Part shown: positions 36,589 to 38,413 of the stretch, in pieces | Position numbering within the stretch: the first letter of the stretch is position 1 | How the letters are laid out: each line of letters starts with the position of its first letter | Source of the DNA: Cypionkella sp. | Lineage (GTDB): Bacteria; Pseudomonadota; Alphaproteobacteria; Rhodobacterales; Rhodobacteraceae | Assembly (NCBI GenBank): GCA_025458525.1 | Contig: JALOSF010000014.1 | Coordinates: forward strand, 1 to 40,473 | DNA length: 40,473 nt | Direction of reading: 5' to 3' | Notes under the pieces: generated by a model | Seen by the model: the letters and a program-made list of their open reading frames with translations, nothing else | Databases searched by the model: none | What the model was told of the DNA's origin: nothing | Program-made: the position numbers and the translations under genes

Positions 36589-37377
36589 TCACAGATCAAA
36601 GGTTGCAAAGACCGGCACATGATCCGACGGCTGATCCCAACCCCGCACCGGGCGCAGGATCCGGCTGGAATGTCCGGCATTGGCAATATCAGGCGTGGCC
36701 CAGATGTGATCCAGCCGCCGTCCCTTGTCGGCTGCGTCCCAATCCGCGGCACGGTAGGACCACCAGCTGTAAAGCAGCCCCTGCGGGATATCCTTGCGGG
36801 TGATGTCTTGCCAGCCGCCCGCCTCCATCACCTGCATCAGGTGATCGACCTCGACAGGCGTGTGACTGACGATCTTGAGAAGGGCCTTATGGCTCCAGAC
36901 ATCATCCTCACGCGGGGCGATGTTCAGGTCGCCCACAAGAATTGACCTGTCCGGTTTGTCCCAACGGCACCATTCGCGCATGTCGGTCAGGAAATCCAGC
37001 TTTTGCCCGAATTTGGGGTTTTCGTCACGGTCGGGGATGTCGCCCCCCGCCGGCACATAGCAATTGTGGATGGTGACCCCGTTTTCCAGCCGCGCGGCCA
37101 CATGGCGCGCGTGGCCCATGCGGGCAAAATCGCGATCGCCTGCATCCATGATCGGCAGCTTGGACAGGATGGCCACGCCGTTATAGCCCTTTTCCCCCCG
37201 CGCGACCATGTAGCGATAGCCAAGCGCCTGAAACTGCTCGACCGGGATCTTCTCGACCGGGCTTTTGCATTCCTGCAAACACAGGATATCGGGCGATTCC
37301 TCGGCCATCAGTCGGGCCACCAGACCTTCGCGCAGTCGCACCGAATTGATGTTCCAGGTGGCAAGGGTAAAGGGCAT
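36589..37377 (-). CDS. xth: Exodeoxyribonuclease III
   Basis: AP endonuclease and 3'-5' exonuclease of base-excision repair. The 262-residue protein has the full ExoIII motif set: TLATWNINSVRLR, CLQECKSP with the metal-binding Glu, GVAILSKLP, NCYVPAGGDI, ILVGDLNIAPREDDVW with the catalytic Asp-Asn, and the closing GWDQPSDHVPVF with the Asp-His pair, plus RRLDHIWATPD. It ends 7 bases from the convergent glycosyltransferase. The region upstream holds the two sRNA-like units on the same strand; the closer unit has a terminator, so xth needs its own promoter. Confidence 0.95.
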   Translation of the reverse strand: MPFTLATWNINSVRLREGLVARLMAEESPDILCLQECKSPVEKIPVEQFQALGYRYMVARGEKGYNGVAILSKLPIMDAGDRDFARMGHARHVAARLENGVTIHNCYVPAGGDIPDRDENPKFGQKLDFLTDMREWCRWDKPDRSILVGDLNIAPREDDVWSHKALLKIVSHTPVEVDHLMQVMEAGGWQDITRKDIPQGLLYSWWSYRAADWDAADKGRRLDHIWATPDIANAGHSSRILRPVRGWDQPSDHVPVFATFDL

Positions 37378-37496
37378 GGCGTGACTCCTGTCTGGCGCGC
37401 AGTCTAGGGGGCGGGCAGCACAGCCTCAACCCCTTGCGGGCGGCGTGGTGCCGGGGCGTGGCAGCCTCCGGTCTGGCGGGCGCGCGGGGCAGACAG

Positions 37497-37550
37497 AAAA
37501 AAGCCCGGATCTTTCGATCCGGGGCAAAGTCCAACAGGGAGGTATGCCAT
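37497..37550 (-). ncRNA. sRNA-like unit B with CCUCCC anti-SD motif and terminator
   Basis: Minus-strand unit of about 54 bases, a diverged copy of unit A 39 bases downstream of it. It opens ATGGCAT, has the same ACCTCCCTGTTGGAC (37543-37529), here inside a GGCA/TGCC mini-stem, then a perfect 8-bp terminator stem CCCGGATC / GATCCGGG, loop GAAA, and TTTTTT. Outside the 15-mer and the opening the two units differ, including the terminator stems, as expected if structure and the anti-SD loop are what is kept. Confidence 0.65.
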
Positions 37551-37588
37551 CAAAACGCCGCAGCGCGCCACGGGTTCCGGGCAAAAAC

Positions 37589-37643
37589 AAAAAAAGGCCG
37601 GGCATAAAGCCCGGCCAGGTCCAACAGGGAGGTGCCGTGCCAT
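37589..37643 (-). ncRNA. sRNA-like unit A with CCUCCC anti-SD motif and terminator
   Basis: Minus-strand unit of about 55 bases. It opens ATGGCAC, carries ACCTCCCTGTTGGAC (37633-37619, the complement of the shared 15-mer GTCCAACAGGGAGGT), and ends with a perfect 8-bp stem GGCCGGGC / GCCCGGCC, loop TTTAT, and seven Us. CCUCCC is a complement of the Shine-Dalgarno sequence. The layout recalls the CcsR/cuckoo sRNAs of Rhodobacter. The 5' end is not determined; the RNA may be processed from the regulator's 3' end. Confidence 0.65.
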
Positions 37644-37726
37644 AACCCCGACACGACAAGGGGAACTTGTGTCATCAATCTCAACCATAAAGGTATATGA
37701 AAGATGAATTGGGCAACAATAGGACG

Positions 37727-38413
37727 TTAGGCTACCAACCGATATCCGCCGCTTTCTGTGACCAAAATGCGCGCATTCGACGGGTCCGGCTCGATCTTTT
37801 GCCGCAGACGATAGATATGCGTCTCAAGCGTGTGGGTCGTCACGCCCGCATTATAGCCCCAGACCTCGTGCAGCAGGACATCGCGCGGAACAACCCCAGA
37901 TTGCGCCCGATACAGGAATTTCAAGATGTTGGTCTCTTTTTCCGTCAGCCGGATCTTCTTGTCCTTTTCATCGAGCAGCATTTTCTGCGCCGGTTTGAAG
38001 GTATAGGGGCCAAGCTGAAAGATCGCATCCTCGGATTGTTCGTGCTGCCGCAACTGCGCGCGGATGCGGGCCAGAAGGACCGGAAACTTGAACGGCTTGG
38101 TCACATAATCATTCGCCCCGGCATCCAGACCAAGGATCGTGTCCGAATCAGTGTCATGCCCGGTCAGCATCACGATGGGGCATTTGACACCCTGCTTGCG
38201 CATCCGTCGGCACAATTCGCGCCCGTCCGTGTCGGGCAGACCCACGTCAAGCATCACAAGATCGTAAAGCGCGGCCTTGGCTTTCTCCATGCCCTCGGCG
38301 CCGGTGCGGGCTTCGAACACGTCGAAATCCTCGGTCATCACCAGTTGTTCGCTCAGCGCCTCGCGCAGATCGTCATCGTCGTCCACCAGCAGGATCTTGC
38401 GCAGCTGCGCCAT
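37727..38413 (-). CDS. OmpR-family response regulator (CenR/OmpR-1-like)
   Basis: A 228-residue two-component regulator. Receiver domain 1-120: acidic pocket VDDDDD (10-15), phospho-acceptor Asp in VMLDVGLPDTDGRELC (about residue 56), the Thr in VMLTGHD and the Lys in YVTKPFKFPVLLARIRAQLRQ. Winged-helix DNA-binding domain about 130-228 (IRLTEKETNILKFLYRAQSGVVPRDVLLHEVWGYNAGVTTHTLETHIYRLRQKIEPDP). No histidine kinase is adjacent. It resembles, from memory, R. sphaeroides RSP_0847 (CenR/OmpR-1), whose 3' region yields the SorX sRNA, which fits the RNA units just downstream. It diverges from ribA over 143 bases. Confidence 0.93.
   Translation of the reverse strand: MAQLRKILLVDDDDDLREALSEQLVMTEDFDVFEARTGAEGMEKAKAALYDLVMLDVGLPDTDGRELCRRMRKQGVKCPIVMLTGHDTDSDTILGLDAGANDYVTKPFKFPVLLARIRAQLRQHEQSEDAIFQLGPYTFKPAQKMLLDEKDKKIRLTEKETNILKFLYRAQSGVVPRDVLLHEVWGYNAGVTTHTLETHIYRLRQKIEPDPSNARILVTESGGYRLVA

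Follow-up and report, generated by a model that had tools for sequence, protein, structure and literature searches.

Behind the gene of a CenR-like response regulator in a Cypionkella genome, two short units follow one another on the minus strand, both carrying the same anti Shine-Dalgarno (anti-SD) stretch. The first is the known sRNA SorX. The second is best read as a separate, undescribed SorX paralogue, a predicted sRNA of about 49 nt that would be transcribed from an EcfG-type promoter of its own. We give this reading a probability of roughly 0.68; the own promoter, the input from the general stress cascade and the pairing with ribosome-binding sites (RBS) belong to it jointly. Among the titles and abstract openings surveyed, none describes a second SorX unit, and the strings CCUCCCUGUUGG and CCTCCCTGTTGGAC are unmatched in the papers covered; the primary papers on SorX and SorY lie outside this coverage, and absence from print is unproven. 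The window referred to below is the whole stretch of DNA that was analysed, 40,473 nt in length.

Table 1. Features of the locus (positions in the window).
Feature	Position	Strand	Basis
OmpR-family response regulator, CenR orthologue	37727-38413	-	ORF; matches OmpR-family response regulator models
Possible own SorX promoter within the cenR 3' region: sigma70-like box TTGTTG-N16-TATACC	37692-37719	-	weak
SorX sRNA (RF02784), unit 1	37590-37663	-	81.4 bits, gathering cut-off 46.6
SorX anti-SD seed ACCUCCCUGUUGGAC	37619-37633	-	exact 15-mer
SorX terminator hairpin, then U run	37596-37616	-	hairpin search
Putative EcfG-type promoter: GGAAC (37578-37574), N16, CGTT (37557-37554)	37554-37578	-	motif match, conservation
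Unit 2, predicted sRNA, about 49 nt, 5' AUACCUCCC	37497-37545	-	start predicted from promoter geometry
Unit 2 anti-SD seed, at the 5' end	37529-37543	-	exact 15-mer
Unit 2 terminator hairpin, then U run	37504-37523	-	hairpin search; both-sided pair changes in relatives
Exodeoxyribonuclease III gene, downstream	36589-37377	-	TIGR00633, 154.7 bits, cut-off 99.05

SorX and the unit behind it

On the minus strand the order is regulator, unit 1, unit 2 and exodeoxyribonuclease III gene. Every match shown between the regulator and OmpR-family response regulator models lies below the curated cut-off. Over 228 residues, the regulator shares 90% identity with the product of the gene preceding SorX in G066, a genome inferred to be R. 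sphaeroides 2.4.1, and the gene in this position in R. sphaeroides, RSP_0847, is given as CenR (PMC9275681).

Unit 1 is SorX and not a new sRNA, as seen from Rfam score, gene order and structure. It is the single match at or above the cut-off in an Rfam scan of the window and is located at the 3' end of cenR; G066 exhibits the same order, with SorX (88.8 bits) at the corresponding place. In R. sphaeroides, SorX, formerly RSs2461 (PMC5036791), is described 3' of RSP_0847 as a processed 3' UTR product (PMC6238624). Hfq binding and RNase E maturation were reported (PMC6238624, PMC5036791), and SorX is described as Hfq-dependent and as lowering polyamine uptake (PMC9438474). The parallel to SorX drawn in the earlier note was thus right, and for unit 1 it amounts to identity. 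The sigma70-like box in the cenR 3' region may be a weak candidate for an own SorX promoter: TTG-N16-TATA, a looser pattern that also matched in 20-50 of 500 shuffles per sequence, recurs 3' of the cenR stop codon and ahead of SorX in all 15 congeners that carry SorX, and a stricter sigma70-type scan of 37380-37800 found no promoter. In another genus (G037, L125), two SorX-like units stand 223 nt apart, both with a 5' hairpin by eye. This is apparently a full tandem duplication of SorX and is not counted below as a second unit of the unit 2 kind.

The earlier note had described two minus-strand units with a common exact 15-mer, each closing in an 8-bp hairpin and a U run. This description is confirmed: GTCCAACAGGGAGGT occurs exactly in both units, with the two seeds 90 nt apart. 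Allowing up to three mismatches, four matches were found in the window (shuffled mean 0.77; none of 100 shuffles reaches four). Several details have to be revised. The borders, given as 54-55 bases per unit, do not hold for unit 1, a 74-nt RNA with a 5' hairpin. ATGGCA, supposed to open both units, is shared by coincidence: it belongs to the SorX 5' hairpin in unit 1, and of the genus's 11 second units whose seed is intact or has one change, only that of the window carries it directly 5' of the seed (in G012 it lies further up, within the promoter spacer). Likewise, the anti-SD stretch had been taken for a hairpin loop; it connects two hairpins in unit 1 and makes up the 5' end of unit 2.

Unit 2 (fold z-score -2.9) has the 15-nt seed and the terminator close behind in common with SorX. 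It differs from SorX in its own promoter motif, in a score of 25.5 bits against RF02784 (gathering cut-off 46.6) and, given the predicted start, which places the seed at the 5' end, in having no 5' hairpin before the seed. SorY (RF02651, formerly RSs1543) carries an equal seed with flanks CAUACCUCCCUGUUGGACUU, depends on RpoHI/RpoHII (PMC5036791), and is described as having its own promoter and not as a 3' UTR product (PMC6238624), which resembles what we propose for unit 2. However, the SorY model has a 5' hairpin that unit 2 does not have, and unit 2 reaches 25.8 bits against a cut-off of 111. A SorY candidate with the same seed is present on contig C160 of the same genome (74.5 bits, below the strict cut-off of 111). 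By eye, this candidate (G000:C160:10852-10934; L002, L084) is located behind a LysR-like gene and has a CTTG-type RpoH-like promoter.

GsrN of Caulobacter, with a 5' C-rich loop and a positive effect on KatG expression, is set apart from unit 2 by its description. The hairpin loops of the CcsR/cuckoo RNAs carry CCUCCUCCC, whereas the motif of units 1 and 2 is CCUCCCUG and lies outside stable hairpins. CcsR1-4 likewise show C-rich stretches in tandem units with stress links, but lie behind a DUF1127 gene and arise by cleavage of a single transcript (PMC10253847), whereas the units here follow an OmpR-family regulator. With another neighbour and another motif, the kinship to this family, as suggested before, is rejected. 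Nor could the earlier reading show that unit 1 falls into a catalogued family, that its seed recurs in SorY, or that unit 2 is built differently.

Conservation of seed and terminator

The seed recurs more often than expected by chance. The 14-mer CCTCCCTGTTGGAC was found in 80 of the 147 genomes searched and in 79 of the 90 same-family genomes, with at least two copies in 62 of these 79, while the reversed control pattern gave one hit in all 147 genomes. Within the genus, 15 of 16 genomes carry the seed; G011, which is 85% complete, has none. A second unit near SorX occurs in 13 of 16 congeners. Eleven of these have an intact or one-change seed, including G015 with one change and G003, which is counted with SorX and the second unit at two contig ends. 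The other two (G002 and G014) have altered seeds, while promoter and terminator remain. The 11-mer CCTCCCTGTTG is kept in the second unit of 11 of the 16 congeners, ten of which keep the full 14-mer. No second unit was found within the 420 nt read in G001 and G005. Absence in two genomes and seed alteration in two others thus suggest that the unit is dispensable or that its target contact drifts.

Among the best 80 of 593 related-regulator loci, three of which hold less than 160 nt after the regulator, 56 carry a seed somewhere 3' of the regulator. A second seed at most 220 nt from the first is present in five of these best 80 (L005, which is from the same genome as L123, and L014, L019, L047, L076), and in two (L043, L004) further seeds lie 0.7 to 1.5 kb from the regulator. 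At the G066 locus, the stretch from SorX to the exodeoxyribonuclease gene is free of a second seed. At other loci (L148, L154, L160, L162, L146, L141), seed units with terminator-like hairpins and differing upstream sequences were observed, possibly further kinds of paralogues.

The terminator of unit 2 and its relatives is conserved as a structure: 95.3% of cells are paired (1 of 500 shuffles as high), four pairs are changed on both sides (2 of 500 shuffles), and the covariation score is matched by 1 of 500. Further pair types in these terminators do not rise above the shuffles (105 of 500).

Two promoter types in front of the second seed

GGAAC-N16-CGTT before unit 2 is the sole match of this pattern in the window, where 0.33 are expected from shuffles. 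It fits the published EcfG motif, GGAAC-N17-20-GTT (PMC6599016). At the same position, GGAAC-N16/17-[CG]GTT is found in 8 of the 16 congeners, the window included (four with CGTT, four with GGTT), and ends 9 or 11 nt 5' of the seed; six of these belong to the 11 second units whose seed is intact or has one change, and two are those with altered seeds. In approximate dinucleotide shuffles of the upstream 70 nt, the motif appeared in 0 to 5 of 3000 per sequence, and the FNR box treated below in 0 to 4 of 3000; since both motifs were first noticed by eye in the tested sequences, these figures are descriptive. Stronger support comes from the contrast between motif and spacer: GGAAC and GTT are kept in all eight, whereas the five N17 spacers average 38% identity. 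None of the SorX, SorY and other units in the first offset scan has the motif at that offset.

The combined pattern of EcfG-type motif and seed hit 13 of 394 family genomes, two within the genus (G000, G010) and 11 outside, against 7 reversed-control hits, and is thus near the control rate outside the genus. Seven of the 11 outside matches are not before a full seed; the other four (L178, L179, L183, L187) stand ahead of SorX- or SorY-like seeds, in part because GGGTT is already present in the SorX hairpin. Single matches therefore mean little, and the case rests on repetition at one locus in one clade. A promoter in the 3' region, which had been suggested for both units, is supported for unit 2.

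The genome encodes an ECF sigma factor (306.6 bits, cut-off 270), NepR and PhyR (353.3 bits, cut-off 240) together; the sigma factor is named EcfG here from its location beside NepR and PhyR. A back-to-back pair of GGAAC-N16/17-CGTT motifs lies between nepR and phyR, as in 14 of 18 NepR loci, which supports the motif as the EcfG promoter of the genus. NepR was found in 15 of 18 genomes examined, including all eight EcfG-type congeners and three of the five FNR-type congeners described next, so that presence of the cascade does not separate the promoter types. In R. sphaeroides, the general stress cascade has a role in membrane stress (PMC5830050).

In five congeners, TTGAN6TCAA ends exactly 35 nt before the second seed. 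Outside the genus, the box stands 34 to 36 nt away in six further units of this FNR type and 36 nt away in one more, L004; over the 11 units compared, the distance is 35 nt in eight and 34 or 36 nt in three. If FNR acts from -41.5, the start would be the base just before CCTCCC. The pattern of FNR box and seed was found in 7 of the 394 family genomes with no control hit; three matches precede a unit 2-type unit and four precede SorX itself at 36-37 nt. In L190, L191, L192 and L194, FNR boxes lie at the regulator stop codon, 36-37 nt 5' of the SorX seed. Three of the seven outside-genus units are not directly behind a cenR-adjacent SorX. The unit of G249 is separated from its SorX-like seed by about 1.4 kb, that of L043 follows an additional SorX-like unit 0.8 kb away from the regulator, and that of L004 is located 1.4 kb downstream. 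G356 and G196 have altered seeds. FNR-type units away from a cenR-adjacent SorX were seen at L043:2905, L043:3036, L004:4686 and L195:1550, and the FNR-type sRNA may be mobile in its own right. The second units of G036, L014 and L076 show neither motif and are unclassified.

On the cenR tree (27 rows, midpoint-rooted, nine label-less rows uncounted, with L004 wrongly among the latter and G249 missing for want of cenR at its locus), EcfG type and FNR type require two changes each against a shuffled mean of 6.2, a value as low in 0 and 1 of 500 shuffles, respectively. Provided that the root separates the genus from the others, the FNR type is that of the earliest-branching congeners and of other genera while the EcfG type is nested, which suggests a swap from an FNR to an EcfG promoter before unit 2. 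With 6 of 24 inner branches starred, one swap is the simplest reading, not a proven one. In G008 (L119), the FNR box runs straight into GGAAC-N17-CATT before the second seed. This box is letter for letter the dksA site in the FnrL table (PMC4634722), and G008 may represent an intermediate between both promoter types.

ChIP-seq of R. sphaeroides FnrL located a site in the putative RSs2461 promoter region, the effect of which could not be established in that paper (PMC4263372). Among 159 seed units, an FNR box at most 180 nt 5' of the seed is present in 15 of 71 SorX-like, 0 of 27 SorY-like and 16 of 61 unlabelled units, where the labels come from a simple, rough pattern and the second units fall among the unlabelled; 12 of the 15 SorX-like cases have the box at 64-66 nt, several from one genus. 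Together with the FnrL site at RSs2461, these boxes make oxygen control of the locus plausible in general.

Competing explanations and biological role

Unit 2 could instead be a second 3'-end product of the cenR-SorX transcript, formed without any promoter of its own when transcription runs through the SorX terminator and an RNase cuts the RNA. Both units lie on the same strand with their seeds close together, SorX is known as a processed 3' UTR product (PMC6238624), and GGAAC-type matches near such seeds also occur by chance. We nevertheless regard this explanation as unlikely, as SorX appears to have a strong terminator (8 G-C pairs and 7 Us) and two promoter types stand at a near-fixed register 5' of the seed while the spacers have diverged. 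Less probable still is that unit 2 is a partial SorX duplicate that has no function and is decaying. Decay would fit the congeners and the R. sphaeroides locus that have no second unit, and likewise the altered seeds of G002 and G014, but it fits poorly with the 11-mer and 14-mer retained in most congeners, with covarying terminator pairs and with promoter elements kept beside diverged spacers.

A small coding gene is a very improbable source of the repeats and is rejected. A 94-codon minus-strand ORF does cover both units, and three of 11 congeners have no stop in any frame within 60 nt of the second seed. However, no frame around the second seed is open in all 11: one or more frames are interrupted by a stop in eight, and all three are in G015. 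In ten genomes of the genus, the two seeds are separated by anything from 90 to 185 nt, a distance that is not preserved modulo 3 and leaves no common reading frame, and the hairpins with U runs are terminators. Hairpin and seed are thus kept while codons are not, and the sRNA character assigned to the units in the earlier note is borne out.

For unit 2 as a paralogue with its own promoter, the following course can be proposed. SorX would be released from the 3' end of the cenR mRNA, whereas unit 2 would be transcribed from the EcfG-type promoter that lies past the SorX terminator and ahead of the second seed, starting near 37545. The resulting RNA would expose the anti-SD seed at its 5' end, with the Rho-independent terminator close behind. 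The PhyR-NepR-EcfG general stress cascade would switch it on and, like SorX, it would pair with RBS, probably with Hfq, and lower translation, with targets presumably overlapping the SorX and SorY target sets. In the older form of the unit, found in earlier branches and some other genera, the FNR box stands at about class II distance, and expression is probably induced at low oxygen via FnrL.

Pattern searches in three genomes gave no usable signal for target prediction. AACAGGGAGG then ATG occurs 2, 1 and 1 times with no control hits, and CAGGGAGG then ATG 17, 21 and 20 times against 2, 1 and 1 in the control; as the reversed control lacks a Shine-Dalgarno sequence, the latter excess says nothing on sRNA pairing. 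By eye, some of the genes inspected resemble transporter binding proteins, which is a lead only.

From a wider point of view, one conserved 14-nt anti-SD seed may be wired to several separate stress inputs within a single cell: SorX to the cenR mRNA, SorY to RpoH and the second unit to EcfG. An exchange of FnrL for EcfG control, with the RNA start kept in register, would then let the second unit respond to low oxygen in certain species but to general stress in others. We put forward this broader picture tentatively, at slightly less than even odds. If unit 2 is what we propose, the SorX/SorY group gains a third arm tied to the general stress response, one of which R. sphaeroides, where SorX was worked out, has no copy at the locus. 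It would also offer a compact example of how a promoter is replaced while the sRNA behind it stays fixed, and species of FNR type and EcfG type, with their different promoters before an equal seed, would allow a direct comparison of how regulatory input evolves.
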